64,000 nucleotides of DNA from Bacillota bacterium (lineage in GTDB: Bacteria; Bacillota; Clostridia; Ch29). Location of the stretch: NCBI GenBank assembly GCA_013540605.1, contig JABVCK010000004.1:62001-126000 (forward strand), in the 5' to 3' direction. The notes beneath the pieces were generated by a model. It did not search any database, was not told where the DNA came from, and saw only the letters and a program-made list of their open reading frames with translations. Shown piece after piece: positions 9,301-61,201 of the stretch; within the stretch, counting starts at the first letter, position 1; every line of letters begins with the position of its first letter. The position numbers and the translations under genes are program-made.

Positions 9301-10482
9301 TTATTTTATTCTGGCAAATGCTTGTTCTAAATCAGCCAAGATATCTTCCGGTTCCTCTATACCGACAGACAATCTCACCAGCCCGTCCGTGATTCCCGCC
9401 GCAAGCCGTTCCTCTTTGCTGTACGGAGAATGGGTCATGGAAGCGGGGTGCTGTATAAGGGTGTCCACATTGCCAAGGCTCACCGCCAGGTGTATCATCT
9501 CGACGCTGTTCATGAGAGTAACGCCTGCGTCCATCCCGCCCTTCAGTTCAAACGCAATCATAGCTCCAAAGCCCGAGGCCTGCTTCTTTGCCAGTTGATG
9601 CTGGGGATGGGACTCCAATCCGGGATAATATACCCTTTCTACCTTCGGGTTTGCCTCCAGCCACTTCGCAATTGCCATCGCATTGGCCTCATGTTTTTCC
9701 ATCCTTATTCCCAGGGTTTTCAGTCCGAGCAGCAGCAGCCAGGCATCAAAGGGGCTCATGGACGCACCGATATCCTTTAGTGTGGTAACTTTCATTTCAT
9801 TGATGAAATCCTTATCTCCCACCGCAACTCCCGCAATGACCGTTCCATGGCCACCTATATACTTGGTAGCGCTGTGAATTGCGACATCGCATCCCAGCTC
9901 CAAGGGCCTCTGCCAGTACGGGGTCATAAAGGTATTGTCAACCAGGGCTTTGGCCCCGTACCTGTGGGCAATCTCAGCGGTTGCCGCAAGGTCGACAAGG
10001 CTCATGGTAGGATTGGCGGGAGACTCGACATATACGATCTTTGTATTTGGTCTAATAGCTGCTTCAATATTGCTCACGTTGGTTGCATCCACAAAGGTCG
10101 TCTCCACTCCGAAGCGGGACAGCAGGTGGCTGAGAAAAGCATGAGTACAGCCGTACAGGGTTTTCGCCGCCACTATATGGTCGCCGGCGCTGACAAGGGC
10201 CATAATCGGAGCCGTTATTGCTCCCATCCCGGACGCAAAGGCTGCAGCGGCCTCCCCGCCTTCGAGAAGAGCCATCTTCTCTTCAAAATCCGTAACCGTA
10301 GGGTTTCCTAAACGGGTATAGATATAGCCTTCTTCTTCTCCGGCAAATCTTCTGGCTCCCTGGTCCACATCTTCAAACACAAAGGTGGAAGTCTGGTAAA
10401 TCGGACGTACGTGAGAGCCTGTCAATGGGCATGGCTCAGAATATAAGGCCTGGGTGGCCTTCTTGAGCTTACGTATCTCCAT
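9301..10482 (-). CDS. megL: Methionine gamma-lyase (PLP enzyme)
   Basis: Breaks L-methionine into methanethiol, ammonia and 2-oxobutyrate. 393 aa, Cys/Met-metabolism PLP family. PLP-binding lysine is in HSATKYIGGHG. The TLYGCT motif carries the Cys that in known methionine gamma-lyases (Cys116 in Pseudomonas) favours gamma-elimination, distinguishing it from cystathionine enzymes; ESPANPTM is also typical. Start ATG at 10482 is preceded by GGGAGGGG; a TTG at 10497 overlaps that site. It is transcribed from a sigma-54-type promoter with upstream activator boxes (10527-10662) and lies directly downstream of a TyrR-like sigma-54 activator gene. Confidence 0.88.
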   Translation of the reverse strand: MEIRKLKKATQALYSEPCPLTGSHVRPIYQTSTFVFEDVDQGARRFAGEEEGYIYTRLGNPTVTDFEEKMALLEGGEAAAAFASGMGAITAPIMALVSAGDHIVAAKTLYGCTHAFLSHLLSRFGVETTFVDATNVSNIEAAIRPNTKIVYVESPANPTMSLVDLAATAEIAHRYGAKALVDNTFMTPYWQRPLELGCDVAIHSATKYIGGHGTVIAGVAVGDKDFINEMKVTTLKDIGASMSPFDAWLLLLGLKTLGIRMEKHEANAMAIAKWLEANPKVERVYYPGLESHPQHQLAKKQASGFGAMIAFELKGGMDAGVTLMNSVEMIHLAVSLGNVDTLIQHPASMTHSPYSKEERLAAGITDGLVRLSVGIEEPEDILADLEQAFARIK

Positions 10483-52738: not shown

Positions 52739-53764
52739 TTATATACTGTAAGTATCAAACATTTTATTAATTATTTCTACTGCGTTTGTAAAAGATCTGT
52801 GAATAGAAAGATTAGATGTTAAAATGACTCCATTAGCTCTTTTCTTTGCAAGATAATTAAGATCTACAATATCTGCCCTACTAGGGATACTCCTCGTAGT
52901 TAACGATTGCAAAACATCTGTTGCAATAATTACCTTCACTTGTTCTTTGCAACATAGTTCTGATATAAAATCAATCGTATCGGTTAAATGAATATAATCA
53001 GTAAGTAATCCTAAATCTCCTCTTCCGATTATTATTTCTGTACAACTCTTTAAGATAGAGGAAAGGCCTTTAACAGATTTGGGTGTCTCAATTTTAGGTA
53101 TCAAGTGAAAATCATAGATGTTATGTTCATTTATTTCTTTCTTTATTATTTGAACTTGTTGATGATTTTCAACTAAAGACAGACAAATATTTTTTATATT
53201 GTAATTTCTTATAAGTCCACAGATAGCATTAAACATGCTTTTATTTGAGTTTTCCTGATACGCATGTTGTGAAAAGATTACAGATCTAGGACCTCTTAAT
53301 TCAGATGAATTTAAGGCTCTTGCTGTTAAAGTATTATGATTGGTTTGAATGACAGTCAATAATAATTCCCCATCACCAATAATAATTGTACTATTATTTT
53401 TTATTGACGCTAGCGGCAAATTTGCATCAACAATAAAAGTATGTCGGTCATTTGTATCATACTCTGTTGTGAGTATTATTATATCGTTTTCTTTTATATA
53501 TTGCGCCTGCGTATGGTCTTGATAAATTCTATTTTTGTAGCAAGGATAAGGTATATCCAGCAATATATTAGGAATAGAATGTATGGCAGTATAATATGTT
53601 TCATATAGTTTACTAAAAAAATCATGATAATCATGGATATCATTATTAACCAAGTTAAATCTAATTCGATTAATATGTAGTGTTGCGTAATTTTTCACTA
53701 TTTCATAGCAATTATCAAAATTCTTAAAATACCTTAAGGTCGGTATAATTTCAACATTAGACAT
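52739..53764 (-). CDS. Pyruvate kinase-like protein without the C-terminal domain
   Basis: 341 aa, against about 470 or more for true pyruvate kinase. Pyruvate kinase features: RFNLVNNDIHDYHDFF (like the RLNFSHG region), a B-domain-like part with GDGELLLTVI and GPRSVIF, PKIETPKSVKGLSSIL (catalytic Lys and metal Glu), GRGDLG (metal Asp), and IATDVLQSL...SRADIVDL. The C-terminal regulatory domain is absent. It follows the radical SAM gene by 53 bp in an AT-rich cluster, so a special role, perhaps phosphoenolpyruvate- or pyruvate-based peptide modification, is possible (speculative). Confidence 0.78.
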   Translation of the reverse strand: MSNVEIIPTLRYFKNFDNCYEIVKNYATLHINRIRFNLVNNDIHDYHDFFSKLYETYYTAIHSIPNILLDIPYPCYKNRIYQDHTQAQYIKENDIIILTTEYDTNDRHTFIVDANLPLASIKNNSTIIIGDGELLLTVIQTNHNTLTARALNSSELRGPRSVIFSQHAYQENSNKSMFNAICGLIRNYNIKNICLSLVENHQQVQIIKKEINEHNIYDFHLIPKIETPKSVKGLSSILKSCTEIIIGRGDLGLLTDYIHLTDTIDFISELCCKEQVKVIIATDVLQSLTTRSIPSRADIVDLNYLAKKRANGVILTSNLSIHRSFTNAVEIINKMFDTYSI

Positions 53765-53817: not shown

Positions 53818-54863
53818 TTATGGTTTGAAAGAGAAGCATAAGGGTACAATATTCTCATTTTGAATATATTTCATTCGATGTGTACATGGTGTATCAATAT
53901 TCAATTTATGATCATATGCCTCATTTGTAAAACCTTCCTCCCATTTAATTTCATTATTATGGTATTTAGCTATACAGTACTGAGAACCAATCATAGCTGA
54001 ACAGATTTGTATTAGTCCATCAGGGTGTACCAAAACTCTTTCTCCCAGCTTAACTGGACAAAATCCATAGTAAGACTTGTTACTGTTAAAAGTATCCAGG
54101 TCAACAAATTGGAGAGGTATTCTAATTTCCATTTTATATTGAACACGATCTAATTCTGCTCTAATTTGCTGCAAAATATTTTCCCAGTCATTATACTCAA
54201 TTAATACGGATTCGGTCCAAGCATCCATAGGTATTCCATGTTTTAATAAGACATGGAAATTTAAGCTCTTGACACCAAGGTTTTCACAATATTTCATCAT
54301 ATCAACTATATTATACTTTTCCCTGTGTTTAACATAAAAATTGTGTACGCATGAAGTAATAGATACATAAAACCCGGCTTTTAATGCTGCGATAATATTC
54401 CTTATTGTAACGTCAAATGATCCATGAGATCTTAGATAATCATTTGTTTCTTGATTATATCCATCCAGACTAAAATTCAATTTGCATAATTCTTTTAATT
54501 TTTCGTAACTAAGTAATATCTCATCAAAGAAACCGTTAGTATCTATCCTAATTTCTGTATAACCAATATTATGAAGCTCCTCAACTAACGTCAACAGATA
54601 CCTATAGTCTGATTGATAATATAGTGTAGGCTCTCCACCGAGTAAGGTTATTTTCCGGGCTCCTAGGTAGTAGAAATCTTGTGAGAGTTTAATGGCCTCA
54701 TTCAAATCAATCTCCTGTCTCTTCGTTTTAAATGTTAGGTTTGTTTTATAATAGCAATGCTTACATCTTAACTGACAATTGTTCGTAATATATAAAAATA
54801 CTTGTTTTAACCTATTGTAAAAAAACTTATAAATCTGTCATCAATTATATAGTTATATTTCAA
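53818..54863 (-). CDS. Radical SAM enzyme with a -1 frameshift near its start
   Basis: About 348 aa if the shift is made. The CxxxCxxC motif CQLRCKHCYY is at 54751-54780, upstream of the first normal start in that frame (TTG at 54705). That frame is open only from a stop near 54840 and has no good start. The preceding frame starts at TTG 54863 with GGGAGG 8 bp away and runs into T7 (54819-54825); slipping -1 there joins MKYNYIIDDRFISFF to YNRLKQVFLYITNN and the motif. GGEPTL follows, and later Cys (FCPVKLG, ICSAMIGSQYC) suggest a SPASM/Twitch-like auxiliary cluster. It probably modifies a peptide; it lies in a PqqD/ABC cluster. Confidence 0.82.
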
Positions 54864-54966
54864 TATATTTACCTCCCTTAACCCGGACAAAGTAAAACAA
54901 CTGTATCCTTGCTGCATACTTTAATTTTCCTTGTTTTAAACTTTGATACTTAATAGTAAAATCCTG

Positions 54967-55053
54967 CTATAAAATTCCACAAAATTCAGATAAATATCGA
55001 CAAAGCTGAGGTTCAGCTATATCCAGGTACTTATCCTGGTAGTATTCGGACAT
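54967..55053 (-). CDS. Possible small protein of 28 residues
   Basis: Short frame MSEYYQDKYLDIAEPQLCRY plus SEFC-containing end, two Cys. It lies between the CYTH terminator and the radical SAM gene, where a precursor peptide could lie. The ribosome site is poor (AGGA about 17 bp away), and it could be a remnant of another gene. Low confidence. Confidence 0.2.
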   Translation of the reverse strand: MSEYYQDKYLDIAEPQLCRYLSEFCGIL

Positions 55054-55133
55054 AATAATAATGTGGTTATCCTAACAAATGTGCCAAAAATTCTTGACAC
55101 TACCATTAATATTTCAGACTCATGCAAAAGGCA

Positions 55134-55162
55134 GAAAAAAACATACTCGGTTTTGTCCGAGT
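55134..55162 (-). terminator. Terminator after the CYTH gene
   Basis: Minus-strand ACTCGG-ACAAAA-CCGAGT, then ATG and TTTTTTT. It divides the peptide cluster into two transcripts, unless read through. Confidence 0.8.
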
Positions 55163-55184
55163 AAAGCGAGAAAACTTCAAGATA

Positions 55185-55808
55185 TTATTGTTTATCTTTT
55201 TCATATCGTATAATCTCAATAAATCTTTTATATTTACTCTTATTATTGATCTTCCATCTAATGCCTATAGAATAAAGTTCTTCCATCAAACCCTTTAAAT
55301 GTTCAGGACGAATTCCCTCGATTTCTAATTCATATGTTACTAGCCCATTTGGAAATGTTGTTTTATCGAGTTCAAATATATATCCATAAATACCTTGTAA
55401 ATAATGCCTGCTATTTTGAATACTACCCAATAAAATCAATTCGTCATTTTCTTCACAAAAAGTATTGAAAATATTATAGGCTTCACTAGAAAGAAAATCC
55501 AATATTTTTTTTGGTTTATATAGAATTTGCATAAAGTCATTTTCATTTATCATAACATTATATTCAGCAGATTTATTAACCAAATCGTTGTAAGTATTTT
55601 CCTTTACTTTCATGCACAGTAGATATGATGTACACTCCTTTCGAATTCGCAGTGTAACATTGTATTTTTCCAAAGTATAATAAGAACTATCAAAATAATA
55701 ATTTATTTGTTCAACTGGATCTCTAATGGAGGAAAAGTCATTTCTGATTTTTTCATAATATTGACTTTCAATTAATAACTTTAGCTCATTCTCCTTGATA
55801 GCTTCCAT
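55185..55808 (-). CDS. CYTH-domain protein
   Basis: 207 aa. CYTH/triphosphate-tunnel features: N-terminal ENELKLLI (ExExK-like), TLRIRKECTSYLLCMKVKEN, and ELEIEG later. The family binds inorganic or organic triphosphates (thiamine triphosphatase, class IV adenylate cyclase). ATG at 55808 with GGAGG 8 bp upstream. It is 29 bp after the ABC permease gene in the same direction. A role in a peptide cluster is unexpected and unknown. Confidence 0.72.
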   Translation of the reverse strand: MEAIKENELKLLIESQYYEKIRNDFSSIRDPVEQINYYFDSSYYTLEKYNVTLRIRKECTSYLLCMKVKENTYNDLVNKSAEYNVMINENDFMQILYKPKKILDFLSSEAYNIFNTFCEENDELILLGSIQNSRHYLQGIYGYIFELDKTTFPNGLVTYELEIEGIRPEHLKGLMEELYSIGIRWKINNKSKYKRFIEIIRYEKDKQ

Positions 55809-55837
55809 CTTAAAATCCTCCAATTGTTTTCTTCAAT

Positions 55838-56647
55838 TTAGTAAAAAACAAAGTTTCCATTCTTACGAGCATTTTTCTCAGCCTTTTTTAGTAACCACAA
55901 TGTTAGGGATACTATAAGCAATAGGCTTATTAACAATTTGTAGATACCTTGTAAACTTGCTGATAAGCTACCTTCTATTAATAGTGGACGAACAATCATT
56001 AAAGCATAGGTCAAAGGGAACAACGCAGAGATAATTTTAGCCCAAATAGGAAATACAAATGTTGGCATTCTTACTCCAGAAAATAAAATCATTGGTTCAT
56101 CAAAAACTGCCATTAAGAAGCTGGCATCACGCGAGAAGAGAAAAATAACATTCATTAACCCTCCCCATACCGCTGCAGAGACTATCAAGACTATGAAGGA
56201 AATAGGTATATAAATTAAACTCTCTACCGGAATCCTACGTATCCATACAGTTACAAATACACAAAAAACCGAAAACATCCAAATGTTTTCAATTAATGCT
56301 CCAAACGCCCGACCATATATTATTGCAATTCGATTAGCAGGGGTTAAAAAAATAGTTTCCAGAGTGCCGTTGATTCTTTCATGTCCCATATAGAAAGCAC
56401 TCTGAAGTAAAGACTTGAATGATATATATCCTAAGAATCCGGTTATCAAAAACATTATGATATCTTCTTGTGAAGCAAAAGTATTCCAAGGACCCTGAGA
56501 TAGATTAAATGGTTTGTAACTATAATAAGCGTTAAAGAATACTACTATTGGCCAAATTAACAAAGTAAAATATACCCCATAAGAATGAAACGAATTACGA
56601 TGTTGCTTTATAACTTCTGCTCTCACAATTTGAAATATTTCTTTCAA
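55838..56647 (-). CDS. ABC transporter permease (ABC-2 type), second
   Basis: 269 aa, six hydrophobic segments. ABC-2 features: GHERINGTLETIFLTPANRI region and MRMPTF-like exit (SGVRMPTFVFPIWAKIISAL). The start is taken at TTG 56647, 6 bp after GGAGGGG; the ATG at 56662 lies inside that site. It overlaps the ATPase gene by 53 bp, so the two are tightly coupled. Confidence 0.82.
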   Translation of the reverse strand: MKEIFQIVRAEVIKQHRNSFHSYGVYFTLLIWPIVVFFNAYYSYKPFNLSQGPWNTFASQEDIIMFLITGFLGYISFKSLLQSAFYMGHERINGTLETIFLTPANRIAIIYGRAFGALIENIWMFSVFCVFVTVWIRRIPVESLIYIPISFIVLIVSAAVWGGLMNVIFLFSRDASFLMAVFDEPMILFSGVRMPTFVFPIWAKIISALFPLTYALMIVRPLLIEGSLSASLQGIYKLLISLLLIVSLTLWLLKKAEKNARKNGNFVFY

Positions 56648-57632
56648 TACTATCCCCTCCATACGATAATTGAATAAGTGCATCTTCTAAACGCGGTTCG
56701 ATTATTTTAAGGTGCAGAATAGGTAGTCCGTTACTAGTTAAAATATGTGCAAGTTGTCCAGTAAGATTTTCTTGAGCACTTATACTAACAGAAACATCAG
56801 TAGTATTTTCTTGAAATTCAATTTTAGCTTGATGGACTTTCGCTATTTCATATATCTCCTTTTTTACACCACTTGTTAGTTCAGGTATTGATACTAAAAT
56901 ATTAGTATTCATTTTCGTGGAATAGGCTAGCTCACTTGGAGTTCCGGTTGCAATAATACAGCCTTTATCTATTACATATATCCAATCACAAAGCTCTTCT
57001 GCTTCTGTTATATAATGTGTTGTTAATAGTATTCCTTTATTCCTTTTTTCAGCCAAATGACGCACATGATTCCTTAATTCTTTTGCAATGGCTACATCTA
57101 AACCCAGCGTTGGTTCATCAAGAAATAAAAATTTTGGATCGTTTACAAGTCCACGCGCTATCTGCAGACGTTGCTTCATACCCTTTGAATAACGCTCTAC
57201 TGGCATATCGGCTGCTTCCTTTAAATCGACTAATTCCAGTAACTCATCAATAGAATCGTTTAATTTGTGTCTAGGCAAATTATAAAGGGAAGCGAAATAC
57301 TCCAGGTTTTCCCGTGCCGTCAAACGCCAATATATATTACGTTCTCCGCCGGTAATAACATTGACAATCCTCTTAATTTCCTGAGGATAGCGTATGCCGT
57401 CAATACCATTAATCGAAAATGAACCGGATGTCGGTTCCAAGAGAGCAGACAACATTTTTATTGTTGTCGTTTTCCCGGCACCATTTATACCAAGAAGTCC
57501 TATGATTTGACCAGGTTTTATTTCTAAGCTAACATCATTAACAGCCATAATTTCTTTCAATGTCTTTGGTCCAAACAAACCTTTTCGCTCTTTAAGCTGG
57601 TAAACTTTACATAAATTATTTGCGATTAGCAT
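56595..57632 (-). CDS. ABC transporter ATP-binding protein
   Basis: 345 aa. Walker A GINGAGKTTTIKML, Q-loop region, signature YSKGMKQRLQIARGL, Walker B FLFLDEPTLGLD, and H-loop THYITEAEELCD. Residues after ~240 form an extension found in drug/peptide-type ABC-2 exporters. ATG at 57632 with AAGGGGGG. With two permeases it probably exports the product of the cluster and may confer immunity (inference). Confidence 0.93.
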   Translation of the reverse strand: MLIANNLCKVYQLKERKGLFGPKTLKEIMAVNDVSLEIKPGQIIGLLGINGAGKTTTIKMLSALLEPTSGSFSINGIDGIRYPQEIKRIVNVITGGERNIYWRLTARENLEYFASLYNLPRHKLNDSIDELLELVDLKEAADMPVERYSKGMKQRLQIARGLVNDPKFLFLDEPTLGLDVAIAKELRNHVRHLAEKRNKGILLTTHYITEAEELCDWIYVIDKGCIIATGTPSELAYSTKMNTNILVSIPELTSGVKKEIYEIAKVHQAKIEFQENTTDVSVSISAQENLTGQLAHILTSNGLPILHLKIIEPRLEDALIQLSYGGDSIERNISNCESRSYKATS

Positions 57633-57645
57633 AATACAGCCCCCC

Positions 57646-58455
57646 TTATCCGAAAGTTTTCTCAATCAATTGTTTCTCTACCCTAGAAAGCCACCAAAAG
57701 CCGAACAATAAGTACATTAAGCTTAAAGCTACTAACTTTATTATTAGGATCCAGTGGTGCCAAAGTAAGTCTCCAAAAATAACTACTTTGCGAAATAGTT
57801 CCAGTACATGAGTTAGCGGCAATACATGTGAAATTACTTGTAACCATGTAGGTAAATACTGAATTGGATAAGATATTCCACAGACAAGACTTACTATTAT
57901 AAATAAAGTATTCTGCGTTATATAAGTATCGCGAGTTCGCAACATAACTGTAGCAAGTGAAACCCCCATTGAAAAAAAGCTGAAAATAGAGAGAATTAAT
58001 ACAATTATTAGTTGCTCAATTTTGATATTCAGCAACTTAGCTCCCAATAACCATCCTACTATTAACACAACAAAGAATTCTAGAAAAGACCGTCCTACTT
58101 GTTCAATTAAATTGCCAAGAAAATACCCTTTCCTCGAACAGGGAGACAATAATAATGCTTCTAAAGTTCCTTCTCTTAACTCATTCATTAAAGAACGTCC
58201 AACATTCATTAAAGTAGATACTGCAAATGTGTAAAGAGACACTCCAAGAATAGTATAGGTTATATAATCAGAACTTCCAGTATAAGTTTCAAATCGGCTA
58301 TCCAAATATCCTCTAAACATATAATGATAAATAAAATATGAAAACAAAACTGTATATAATCCTATAACAATCCTTTGAACTATAAAGGACCATGGGAAAA
58401 CACGTTTTGCAATGTAATAGTTACGTTTTGCAGTTGCTAGCATTGTAGTTAGCAT
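57646..58455 (-). CDS. ABC transporter permease (ABC-2 type), first
   Basis: 269 aa, six hydrophobic segments; ELREGTLEALLLSPCSRKGY is the typical ABC-2 motif, followed by ISYPIQYLPTWLQVISHVLP. AAAGGAGG lies before the ATG at 58455. It overlaps the CPBP gene by 35 bp and precedes the ATPase gene by 13 bp. Confidence 0.85.
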   Translation of the reverse strand: MLTTMLATAKRNYYIAKRVFPWSFIVQRIVIGLYTVLFSYFIYHYMFRGYLDSRFETYTGSSDYITYTILGVSLYTFAVSTLMNVGRSLMNELREGTLEALLLSPCSRKGYFLGNLIEQVGRSFLEFFVVLIVGWLLGAKLLNIKIEQLIIVLILSIFSFFSMGVSLATVMLRTRDTYITQNTLFIIVSLVCGISYPIQYLPTWLQVISHVLPLTHVLELFRKVVIFGDLLWHHWILIIKLVALSLMYLLFGFWWLSRVEKQLIEKTFG

Positions 58456-59182
58456 GCTGATTTTCCTCCTTTACCCTCTTACTCATCCGAAATCTAGCAA
58501 AAGATGTATAAGCAATTGGAATATTATAAGTAAGATGTATCAAGATTGGTATTAGCACGGAGCCACTATACACAAAAAGAAGTCCTGCGCTGAGGCTGAG
58601 CATAAACTGTTTGAAAAAGTCACGCGGACGGAATCTCTGTTGTGCTGCAAAATGTAATATATGTTCCGCTACGAATAAAAACGCTGAAATTAAAAGCGCT
58701 GGAGCTACTCCGATTAGCGGTAATAAAGATAAAATCACAAAAGCTTTGTAGAATAACTCTTGTAATATTGCAGAAGCAATATTACTATATGCGTCTAAAG
58801 ATGCACTCCGTAAAGTAATAGTAGGAAATAAAGTCATTAGTTCTTGATTATAGAAAGGACGAAGTTCTTTAATAAGCGGAATCAAAAAACATATACTTAC
58901 AATAATGGCAAATAATAATGATATTGGCATATGCTTAGTAACAGGAACATCTGGAGTGAATAGCAAAAATGCTAATAAATATGGAATAAAATAAACAGTT
59001 CTGCGTAACCAATCAGCACCGTTAAATAATTTATCATGGATTTTTCTCGCTTTTCTGATGACTAATAATTCAAGATGTACAATCAAGAATAACACTATAG
59101 TCCCTTTAGATGGAAAAAATATAGCAAGTGAAATAATTATAAACTCCATTAAGGTAAAAACTATCCATTGCTGTTTACTCAT
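58421..59182 (-). CDS. CPBP-like membrane protein with altered catalytic motif
   Basis: 253 aa, about seven hydrophobic segments. The CPBP layout is present, but motif 1 reads LQELFYKAF where active enzymes have EExxxR; motif 2 FLFVAEHILHF and motif 3 LIHLTYNI remain. It may be inactive or act differently. CPBP proteins in peptide clusters can serve in maturation or self-protection. ATG at 59182 behind GAGGTG; it starts 5 bp after the PqqD-like stop. The frame is open to 59212. Confidence 0.75.
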   Translation of the reverse strand: MSKQQWIVFTLMEFIIISLAIFFPSKGTIVLFLIVHLELLVIRKARKIHDKLFNGADWLRRTVYFIPYLLAFLLFTPDVPVTKHMPISLLFAIIVSICFLIPLIKELRPFYNQELMTLFPTITLRSASLDAYSNIASAILQELFYKAFVILSLLPLIGVAPALLISAFLFVAEHILHFAAQQRFRPRDFFKQFMLSLSAGLLFVYSGSVLIPILIHLTYNIPIAYTSFARFRMSKRVKEENQHANYNASNCKT

Positions 59183-59186
59183 TTCG

Positions 59187-59438
59187 TTACACCTCGACAA
59201 GTTCGTTTTCAAGCAATTCTTTCATAAATTGTTGAATATCTTTTAATACCATTGCTTTATCAACATTGTATTTTTCTGCTATTTTATCAGCTATTTGCTC
59301 TATTGATGTTTTACCATCAATGGAATCCCAAACCAATTCGCCTACTTCATCAAGTTGAAATGCTTTATAGTTTTTAGCTATATATTTTATGCCATTAACA
59401 ACACGGTATTGTACAAATACATCGCGTCTCGGTATCAT
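59187..59438 (-). CDS. PqqD-like peptide-binding protein
   Basis: 83 aa, winged-helix RiPP recognition element. YRVVNGIKYIAKNYKAFQLD, then GELVWDSIDGKTSIEQIADK and a last helix with LLENELVEV match the PqqD family. PqqD-type proteins bind a precursor peptide and bring it to a radical SAM enzyme. GAAGGAG lies before the ATG at 59438. This gene is the best single sign that the cluster makes a modified peptide. Confidence 0.85.
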   Translation of the reverse strand: MIPRRDVFVQYRVVNGIKYIAKNYKAFQLDEVGELVWDSIDGKTSIEQIADKIAEKYNVDKAMVLKDIQQFMKELLENELVEV

Positions 59439-59506: not shown

Positions 59507-59702
59507 TTGTGTCTTCTCTACACAATTTGTTTACGAAATAAGTTAAATCCTGAAGAATATGCAACCTTTAGAAATTAGTGATATTTGCTGTTATGCATTA
59601 TCCATTGCAGCAGGAAGCTTAACAACGATTAATTTAGGAGCTTTATACACGAACCCCACCCCCTTTATAACAAATTTATTTTTTAGGGTAGAGAAGACAC
59701 AA
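59507..59702. repeat. 15-bp inverted repeats around the small peptide frame
   Basis: TTGTGTCTTCTCTAC (59507-59521) and its exact complement GTAGAGAAGACACAA (59688-59702), separated by 166 bp. The 19-residue frame is between them. They could be paired protein sites or the stem of a large RNA loop. The left copy also continues as TTGTGT...ACACAA, a small palindrome. Confidence 0.8.
59591..59650 (-). CDS. Candidate small peptide (possible precursor)
   Basis: GTG start at 59650 with a strong AAAGGGGGTGGGG upstream; 19 residues: MYKAPKLIVVKLPAAMDNA, then TAA. It lies 150 bp before the PqqD-like gene and inside 15-bp inverted repeats. A short Lys/Pro peptide could be a modified product or signal, but it is very short for a leader plus core, so it may instead be a leader peptide. 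Unproven. Confidence 0.4.
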   Translation of the reverse strand: MYKAPKLIVVKLPAAMDNA

Positions 59703-59712
59703 ACATTAATGG

Positions 59713-60540
59713 TCAACTTACCTGCTTTTTCTTGAGAATAGTCTGTACTTGAACATTAAGATCTTGACAAAACCACAGAGCCTCTTTGGTATATCGTTCC
59801 ACCGTTGTTTCATCAAACGGACGGGTTTGGAAATCTAGATACTTACTAAGTAGAATTTTATCGCCTGTTTTCTCCTGATAACGAATTATCTTACGATATA
59901 GCCACTTGGAACTCGGATTTGTCTCCCCATAAGCAGCTAAATAAGATGTCACCATTGTATCTATCAGCATTCGTGCCATGAAGAAAGCTGAACCTAGGTC
60001 TTTGGAAAGTAATGCGCCTTGTACGTCCTCAACCATACCTGCGTAAAACTCTGATTTGATAACAATCTGATAGAAACCTAGGTTATTGAATTGAATAGAT
60101 TTATAAATTTCTTCAAACTTTTCTTTGTTTATTACCGGTCTACCAAATTTTAAACGATGTAAAAAATCAAATTCAGTTTCAGATAGGCGTTGGATATAAT
60201 GCTCCGTCTTAAAATCTAACCCATTCAGTTTAGCTATCATTTGATTAAATTCATTCCAACTCCAATATTCAAAATCATATCGAATTCCATCGTGTCTAAT
60301 GTTACGTACAATAGCTTGTTGAGTTGATAAGATTAATTCCTCGGAAGAAGGGTCTCCTCGAAACCGGTCAGTACTAATATCCTTACAAATTACATATACA
60401 TCAATATCGGAAGTTTCGTTTCCAAACCCCTCCATTAGCGATCCCGCTATGTAGACTAGTGAGGTATCTAGATCTATTCCTTTCAAATGTTGCAAAATAA
60501 GATGTGGATGATTTTCAATATTTCGTTTATCAAGCACCAT
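59713..60540 (-). CDS. Nucleotidyltransferase-domain protein
   Basis: 275 aa. Pol-beta-type nucleotidyltransferase motif: AGSLMEGFGNETSDIDVYVI (residues ~32-51; GS...SDID metal ligands). The rest is helical. ATG at 60540 (MVLDKRN) with AAAGGAGAGG upstream; the frame is open to 60561, overlapping the GGDEF-RHH stop. Relatives are aminoglycoside and minimal nucleotidyltransferases; the substrate is unknown. Its place just before the small peptide suggests it belongs to the cluster. Confidence 0.75.
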   Translation of the reverse strand: MVLDKRNIENHPHLILQHLKGIDLDTSLVYIAGSLMEGFGNETSDIDVYVICKDISTDRFRGDPSSEELILSTQQAIVRNIRHDGIRYDFEYWSWNEFNQMIAKLNGLDFKTEHYIQRLSETEFDFLHRLKFGRPVINKEKFEEIYKSIQFNNLGFYQIVIKSEFYAGMVEDVQGALLSKDLGSAFFMARMLIDTMVTSYLAAYGETNPSSKWLYRKIIRYQEKTGDKILLSKYLDFQTRPFDETTVERYTKEALWFCQDLNVQVQTILKKKQVS

Positions 60541-60557: not shown

Positions 60558-61121
60558 TCACACGTTATATTTTTTTAAAAACAATTCCAAGCTCTCTCTT
60601 AATATTTCTGCTTCACTCTTACTGAGATATCTAGCCAAACTACGTAATCTTTCCAACTGACTTGGACTATAGTAGTTGGAACGTAAAACCATTTTCTCTT
60701 CTGCGATACAAGCTCTATTGCGTCCACATCGCTTTGCTTTATTCAGTACTTCTTCAGCCTTACGCCACAATTCAGCTGCATCACGCCCGTCCCATGGATA
60801 TTGAGCTATCCCTGCGCTACAAGTTAATCCGTCTGTTTTAAAAAATCCAGCAAACTTCTTCAAAAGTTCATCAGTAAAATCTTTAGCTTGCTTCTTATTT
60901 ATCCCAGGCATGATTAAAAGAAATTCATCCCGTTCCGCCCAAAACAGTTGAACTTTATTGCTGTTAATTTGCTCATTCAAAAACTCCCTAACTTCATGTG
61001 CTAATCGAGTTTTATCTTCTTGAGAATAAGTATTGAAACGGTCAAGATCGAAAAATACTATTGAAAATAAATCATTTTCATGAGTCGCTATGAAATATTC
61101 TAAGTTATCAAAAGCATTCAT
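60558..61121 (-). CDS. Degenerate GGDEF domain fused to a ribbon-helix-helix-like end
   Basis: 187 aa. Residues ~1-140 have the GGDEF fold (VFFDLDRFNTYSQEDKTRLA, SAGIAQYPWDGRDAAELWRK, ALNKAKRCGRN-like), but the signature is AERDEF, so cyclase activity is doubtful. Residues ~148-187 (SPSQLERLRSLARYLSKSEA, then ILRESLELFLKKYNV) look like an RHH DNA-binding unit. A 44-bp perfect palindrome lies 37 bp upstream, the likely operator. It could be a nucleotide-sensing repressor of the cluster (inference). First gene of the AT-rich group. Confidence 0.68.
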   Translation of the reverse strand: MNAFDNLEYFIATHENDLFSIVFFDLDRFNTYSQEDKTRLAHEVREFLNEQINSNKVQLFWAERDEFLLIMPGINKKQAKDFTDELLKKFAGFFKTDGLTCSAGIAQYPWDGRDAAELWRKAEEVLNKAKRCGRNRACIAEEKMVLRSNYYSPSQLERLRSLARYLSKSEAEILRESLELFLKKYNV

Positions 61122-61157: not shown

Positions 61158-61201
61158 TACACCGATGTATATATATGTTAACATATATATACATCGGTGT
61201 A
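61158..61201. promoter_or_regulatory. 44-bp perfect palindrome upstream of the GGDEF-RHH gene
   Basis: Arms of 22 bp (61158-61179 and 61180-61201), each reading TACACCGATGTATATATATG and TT, meeting without a spacer. Likely operator for the RHH end of the adjacent protein. Confidence 0.8.

Follow-up and report, generated by a model that had tools for sequence, protein, structure and literature searches.

PqqA of the PQQ pathway (PqqA/PqqD/PqqE) is a short precursor peptide, and the pathway is defined by its PqqE and PqqC partners and by a Glu-Tyr core. The enzyme MccB of microcin C (MccA/MccB) is a ThiF/E1-like protein. In the available part of the source, MccA is mostly 7 aa long, has a C-terminal Asn and is adenylated by MccB, and a termination mechanism in the mcc operon lifts the mccA transcript above the enzyme genes (PMC6495379). 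Linear polyphosphorylated peptides (LPP) are described, in the accessible portion of their report, as products of precursors of 35–200 aa with the motif YxxPxVLxHQxIxFETxxS, and their clusters as carrying a discrete PqqD-type RiPP recognition element (RRE) for which YxxP is essential to binding, an NTP transferase, an HprK-like kinase, a SipW-like peptidase and an MsbA-like pump (PMC13381572). The same portion states that discrete lasso RREs bind [Y/W]xxPx[L/V/I/A/F/Y] in the leader (PMC13381572), and some lasso clusters carry a nucleotidyltransferase (NTase) as well, according to the part of PMC8498205 available.

The locus described here lies in a 64,000-nt stretch of a Clostridia contig (JABVCK010000004.1), referred to as the window. 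The cluster neighbors are all on the minus strand and are transcribed in the order GGDEF-like protein, NTase, peptide, PqqD, CPBP, permease, ATPase, permease, CYTH, radical SAM and pyruvate-kinase-like protein. The features, by window position, are:

52739..53764, minus strand, pyruvate-kinase (PK)-like barrel protein (domain search)
53818..54705, minus strand, radical SAM protein, with CxxxCxxC just upstream in the same frame (domain search)
55185..55823, minus strand, CYTH-domain protein (HMM; found in 6 of 24 loci)
55838..56683, minus strand, second ABC-2 permease (domain search)
56595..57665, minus strand, DrrA-like ABC transporter ATPase (domain search)
57646..58455, minus strand, ABC-2 permease (domain search)
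58421..59182, minus strand, CPBP/Rce1-like intramembrane protease, candidate leader peptidase (HMM)
59187..59438, minus strand, PqqD-family RRE, 83 aa (PF05402, 57 bits, cut-off 23.4)
59507..59521, minus strand, downstream arm of an exact 15-nt inverted repeat, predicted to form an RNA stem with the other arm
59591..59650, minus strand, precursor peptide gene, 19 aa, GTG start, VYKAPKLIVVKLPAAMDNA (sequence, relatives, codon test)
59654..59666, minus strand, ribosome-binding site AAAGGGGGTGGGG (sequence; upstream of the GTG start)
59688..59702, minus strand, upstream arm of the exact 15-nt inverted repeat (repeat search)
59713..60540, minus strand, NTase with the kanamycin-nucleotidyltransferase fold (alignment, predicted structure)
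60558..61121, minus strand, GGDEF-like protein with an altered signature motif, encoded immediately before the NTase, an arrangement shared with locus L042

The window cluster resembles LPP in its discrete PqqD-type RRE, YxxP leader motif, exporter and occurrence in Bacillota and, going by the available description, in having an NTP transferase (PMC13381572). However, the window family has precursors of only 18–24 aa and a CPBP protease, the 19-aa window peptide has no HQxIxFET, and neither an HprK-like kinase nor an SpI-like peptidase was found among the 10 window proteins scanned. Lasso systems with a discrete B1 protein (paeninodin type) share the motif [Y/W]xxPx[LVIAF], and a B1 protein, TbiB1, is the nearest solved relative of the window PqqD, but the window core is far too short for a lasso peptide. 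The 10 window proteins include no lasso B2 protease or Asn-synthetase-like macrolactam cyclase, and in two related loci, L029 and L031, the AsnB-like genes do not reach the cut-off for lasso cyclases. With PQQ the cluster has in common a very short precursor with the leader motif and a PqqD adaptor, but none of PqqB, PqqC, PqqE and PqqF was found among the 10 window proteins scanned, and the core has no Glu/Tyr pair. The likeness to microcin C lies in the very short gene-encoded peptide, the possible attachment of a nucleotide and, from the part of PMC6495379 available, a termination mechanism that yields more transcript of the precursor than of the enzyme genes; the window peptide has NA as its last two residues, and no MccB relative was found among the 10 proteins scanned. 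The cluster is therefore outside the lasso, LPP, PQQ and microcin C families, since it fails their defining features.

The precursor frame comprises 19 codons and a TAA stop, with the initiator methionine encoded by GTG rather than ATG. A longer reading of the same ORF, from TTG 59716, would give 41 aa, but an M-Y start at the position equivalent to the GTG is common to many relatives. A 19-residue frame with a strong ribosome site inside an exact 15-nt inverted repeat had been picked out from the sequence alone, and this description was borne out; its placement before the PqqD-like gene also holds, but not directly before it, as the PqqD ATG (59438) is about 150 nt after the peptide stop. The frame at 59591–59650 is almost certainly a real precursor gene. 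The proposal that it encodes a minimal precursor is strongly supported by the conserved sequence, the RRE-binding motif, the close association with PqqD and the tandem copies seen in relatives, and the final product may act as a signaling peptide, as had also been proposed. A degenerate DNA pattern for the peptide had no match in the window's own genome (3.35 Mb), because the pattern required ATG and the precursor starts with GTG.

Relatives of the precursor, 18–24 aa in length, were found in 23 further loci with the same NTase and PqqD-type RRE, giving 24 loci with the window included and 23 distinct peptides. A Geobacillus plasmid, reached through the window CPBP protein, has PqqD, NTase, CPBP, CYTH and an ABC pump, with the unannotated frame MKKYEKPQVIVIKMPTAIVEI between NTase and CPBP, and a Streptococcus salivarius plasmid has MVYKKPIVEDIKLSASALLV behind the NTase. 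Searches with the NTase led to nine more plasmids and 20 genome loci, and small Y..P frames were found in Bacillus, Paenibacillus, Brevibacillus, Geobacillus and Parageobacillus, and also in Streptococcus, Streptomyces, Nonomuraea and Corynebacterium. The NTase alignment matched only the window's own genome among 398 genomes of the phylum, and a PqqD query run on 147 other genomes matched only distant PqqDs, in 18 of them. The Geobacillus plasmid (L022, 2489–2644) encodes a second YxxP precursor, a 51-aa peptide that contains three KCR repeats; its gene precedes another PqqD and adjoins QueA-like and thymidylate-synthase-like genes. At the corresponding place on the S. salivarius plasmid (L025, about 1877–1951), a frame of 24 aa has a Cys close to its end and again adjoins QueA-like and thymidylate-synthase genes.

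A fixed pattern (16–26 codons, Y..P.[LVIAFYT] after 1–4 residues, and a ribosome site of at least five matching bases) matched 16 of 17 PqqD loci and none of 15 NTase loci without PqqD. Simulated sequence gave three matches in total over ten copies of the whole PqqD set. The sole PqqD locus missed was L049, where the Tyr comes one residue too late. Twenty of the 21 strict matches in the first set are plausible precursors; a strict match in L038 (minus strand, 5449) and the match in L074 were excluded as chance-like. Since the pattern had been devised with the first loci already in view, new loci were sought, and genomes related to L036 and L037 supplied ten more. Two of these (L059 and L061) were not counted, being repeats of L042 and L039 by equal HMM scores and peptides, and A5 does not include L041, which is near-identical to L040. 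On the initial short stretches the pattern matched four of the eight new loci. With stretches of 13–19 kb and the pattern unchanged, all seven new PqqD loci matched, each time with a CPBP gene within 400 nt; the eighth, L074, is without PqqD and gave only a weak, chance-like match. Live tandem precursor copies occur in L040 (two), L041 (two) and L042 (three). At 9380–9445 of L040 there is also a third copy without its ATG, and the near-identical L041 has two copies only.

The Tyr and Pro of the YxxP leader motif are invariant in all 23 distinct peptides. The synonymous substitution pattern, proposed earlier as a check on the frame, was biased toward silent changes: in 12 of 14 aligned pairs, among them all five that include the window gene, the base changes altered fewer amino acids than they would if placed at random (P < 0.05), the pairs being non-independent and the relatives having been picked by an amino-acid motif, a bias toward conservation. 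Two of the L042 copies differ at four bases and the two L041 copies at three, and every one of these differences is silent. At the gene level the precursor fits a RiPP, being gene-encoded, under protein-level selection and next to modifying genes. After the motif there is no conserved nucleophile, and seven of the 23 peptides, that of the window included, are without Ser, Thr, Tyr or Cys, which leaves the C-terminus, a Lys or an added group as the only candidate acceptors. The penultimate Asn was considered as the modification site and rejected, as only 10 of the 23 peptides have it. Like cores go with like tailoring genes: AICAR-transformylase-like, inositol-phosphatase and kinase genes occur both in L038 (core PGMQNA) and in L070 (core PGMMNY), and L071 and L072 have in common the core PAASQK and a similar upstream gene set.

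The cluster has the features of an RRE-dependent RiPP, namely a PqqD-like RRE and a leader, YKAPKL, that fits [Y/W]xxPx[LVIAF]. An alignment of the PqqD proteins matches the solved RREs TbiB1 (E 3e-11), 9x90, 9x8z, 3g2b and others. From motif and homology, the leader is very probably held by the PqqD-type RRE; the N-terminal half would serve as leader and the last 6–8 residues as core. In 21 of the 24 loci NTase and PqqD are neighbors that share a strand, sometimes with the peptide between them, and in 22 the peptide is within 400 nt of NTase, PqqD or CPBP; in L030 and L031 it is at least 4.7 kb from NTase and PqqD. An apparent NTase-PqqD fusion in L028 was rejected, having no support from Pfam or from our own PqqD HMM.

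Nine NTase sequences all have G33, S34, D45, D47, D89 and E91 (GS, DxD and a third acidic pair). The predicted structure of the window NTase (pLDDT 87.7) matches kanamycin nucleotidyltransferase and ANT(4') with Z 12.0–12.3 over 231–233 residues at rmsd 4.8–4.9 (for ANT(4'), Z 12.3, 232 residues, rmsd 4.8), and the GS...DxD motif together with the modeled fold places it in the ANT/kanamycin nucleotidyltransferase fold. ANT-fold NTases can also serve as resistance enzymes. A relative without PqqD is found in L074 (9786–15069) alongside a nucleoside diphosphate kinase (NDK), GTP cyclohydrolase I and two radical SAM genes, a gene set that might serve to make a deazapurine nucleotide.

A CPBP membrane protease was detected by HMM in 21 of the 24 loci and was not found in L025, L029 or L031. 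Kinases (TMK-, NDK- or PK-like) are present in 19: thymidylate-kinase-like in 14, by our own TMK model trained partly on these loci, NDK in L031, L036 and L076, and PK in the window and, as a second PK-like gene, in cluster L073. The TMK-model member of L026 has AAA-type matches in Pfam and a dNK match only below threshold. Among the ORFs scanned, no kinase was found in L029, L042, L043, L049 or L075. Proteins of the CYTH family act on triphosphates, and NUDIX genes occur in several loci. The GGDEF-like protein of the window (60558–61121) is 34% identical to that of L042 (6651–7220), both with altered signatures (AERDEF, GRDEF).

At 54705–54870 (minus strand) the radical SAM motif CQLRCKHC is encoded ahead of the listed start and in its frame, another frame offers a TTG with a good ribosome site, and the frames meet at a T run; a sequencing error, decay or frameshifting is possible. 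The window radical SAM protein is not claimed to be MoaA-like (43 bits, below the cut-off of 325). In L036 (13713–15186) a radical SAM protein has prokaryotic viperin as its best NCBIfam match, with an NDK-like gene after it; at 60 bits, below the cut-off of 180, it is not claimed as a viperin. A 300-nt gap to which no gene is assigned, with a hairpin inside, separates the CYTH and radical SAM genes (54880–55180), and a palindrome with 22-nt arms upstream of the GGDEF-like gene (61158–61201) is possibly an operator or terminator.

The arms of the inverted repeat around the precursor (59507–59521 and 59688–59702) are separated by 166 nt, and the 15-mer has no other copy in the 3.35-Mb genome, even allowing one mismatch. 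None of 200 simulated flanks equaled the window repeat score (best 14, against 15). Folding of RNA from 59507–59702, which the sequence-only reading had put forward as a check, gave a structure better than shuffles (z = −3.64; 1 of 200 shuffles folded at least as well). By the same simulation test (0/200), bracketing repeats are present in seven of the 24 loci, the window included, with arms of 26 nt in L036, 22 nt in L040 and L041, 23 nt in L042, 31 nt in L072 and 21 nt in L073; L039 (2/200) and L071 (4/200) are borderline, and 15 loci have no bracketing repeat. Strong local hairpins follow the precursor in seven others (L022, L029, L031, L037, L043, L049 and L070). The repeat brackets the precursor cistron or cistrons, and its arm sequence differs from cluster to cluster; those of L036, L042 and L073 are alike by eye, with differences that are paired changes. 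Fold z values are −3.6 for the window, −4.6 for L041 and −7.3 for L036. G-U pairs in the stems were rejected as proof of an RNA structure, the mismatches being too few and mixed. Because different repeats bracket the precursor in six more loci, that of the window is probably an RNA stem, and by analogy with the mcc operon, as the available text presents it (PMC6495379), it is fairly likely to set the precursor cistron apart in the mRNA, so raising precursor over enzyme.

Two readings of the repeat compete with the mRNA stem. If the arms were recombination sites, the precursor cassette would be invertible or mobile as DNA, and the exact arms of 15 nt in the window and 22 nt in L040/L041, which frame whole cassettes, would be accounted for. 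Arm sequences vary between loci, however, unlike recombinase sites, no target duplication is seen and the genome has no second copy, so that this reading is quite improbable. The other was raised in the sequence-only reading, where the frame was a leader peptide in an attenuation loop, its translation controlling the stem and the downstream genes; a short frame within an inverted repeat, in RNA that folds better than shuffles, invites it. Yet the amino-acid sequence is conserved, the peptide gene shifts position among clusters and is duplicated in tandem, no regulatory codon run is present, 17 of the 24 loci are without a clear bracketing repeat and no Rfam family matches, and we consider the idea scarcely credible.

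As a whole, the locus is probably explained by a minimal RiPP precursor that is bound by PqqD, modified with the help of the NTase, cleaved by CPBP and exported. The NTase would act on the RRE-held peptide or on a group attached to it, a step that we favor by a narrow margin of confidence. The presence of nucleotide kinases in 19 of the 24 loci suggests a nucleotide-derived group; together with CYTH/NUDIX, the core-matched tailoring genes and the L074 cluster, they suggest that such a group is made and transferred. Tentatively, a special nucleotide might be produced and policed by the cluster kinases (PK-like in the window, thymidylate-kinase-like or NDK-like in other loci) together with the radical SAM and CYTH/NUDIX proteins, and its NMP part transferred. 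Leader removal at the membrane would fall to CPBP, and export of the product to the DrrAB-like ABC pump. More speculative again is the idea of a second, independently evolved route to ribosomal peptide-nucleotide conjugates, with Trojan-horse antimetabolites as products: the radical SAM, kinases and base-modifying enzymes of each cluster would build its own altered nucleoside triphosphate, and the resistance-fold NTase would transfer the altered nucleotide to the 19-residue peptide on the PqqD-type RRE.

The peptide could instead be a disposable scaffold for a small molecule, as with PQQ or with the 3-thiaglutamate carried on TglA (the latter as given in the available part of PMC9016710), the NTase and kinases modifying the small molecule rather than the peptide and proteolysis releasing it. 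The short core, the PqqD-type RRE and the highly varied small-molecule enzymes of the clusters (AICAR transformylase-like, PALP, aminotransferase, inositol monophosphatase, ThyA-like and QueA-like) agree with this, and PQQ too is made from a short precursor, in which the motif is present (PMC13381572, in its available portion). Against it, the core is highly variable and offers no conserved chemical handle, Asn being penultimate in 10 of 23 peptides, and a scaffold role is judged unlikely, though a serious contender. That the NTase is a self-resistance enzyme adenylylating the product, with the peptide modified by radical SAM or other enzymes only, is improbable: its fold is that of the aminoglycoside nucleotidyltransferases and some clusters hold resistance-like genes such as extra tRNA synthetases, but NTase and PqqD remain adjacent in 21 of 24 loci as the tailoring genes change around them, and the PqqD-less relative in L074 belongs to another nucleotide-related cluster, with GTP cyclohydrolase and NDK.

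The precursor is a real, conserved and unusually short RiPP type, in a cluster type for which no report of the combination of PqqD, NTase, CPBP and precursor was found in the open-licence literature. Six annotated plasmid records with such a tiny precursor were examined and none lists it in its gene table, the PLSDB tables being incomplete; such short genes are easily overlooked by annotation. The combination of RRE, NTase, CPBP and a tiny YxxP precursor provides a genome-mining rule that yielded new members at once. In clusters of the window type, the RiPP leader peptidase might be a CPBP protease. Should the NTase indeed act as proposed, peptide-nucleotide compounds would be reached by a new route, and a fold known from aminoglycoside resistance would be tied to RiPP biosynthesis.
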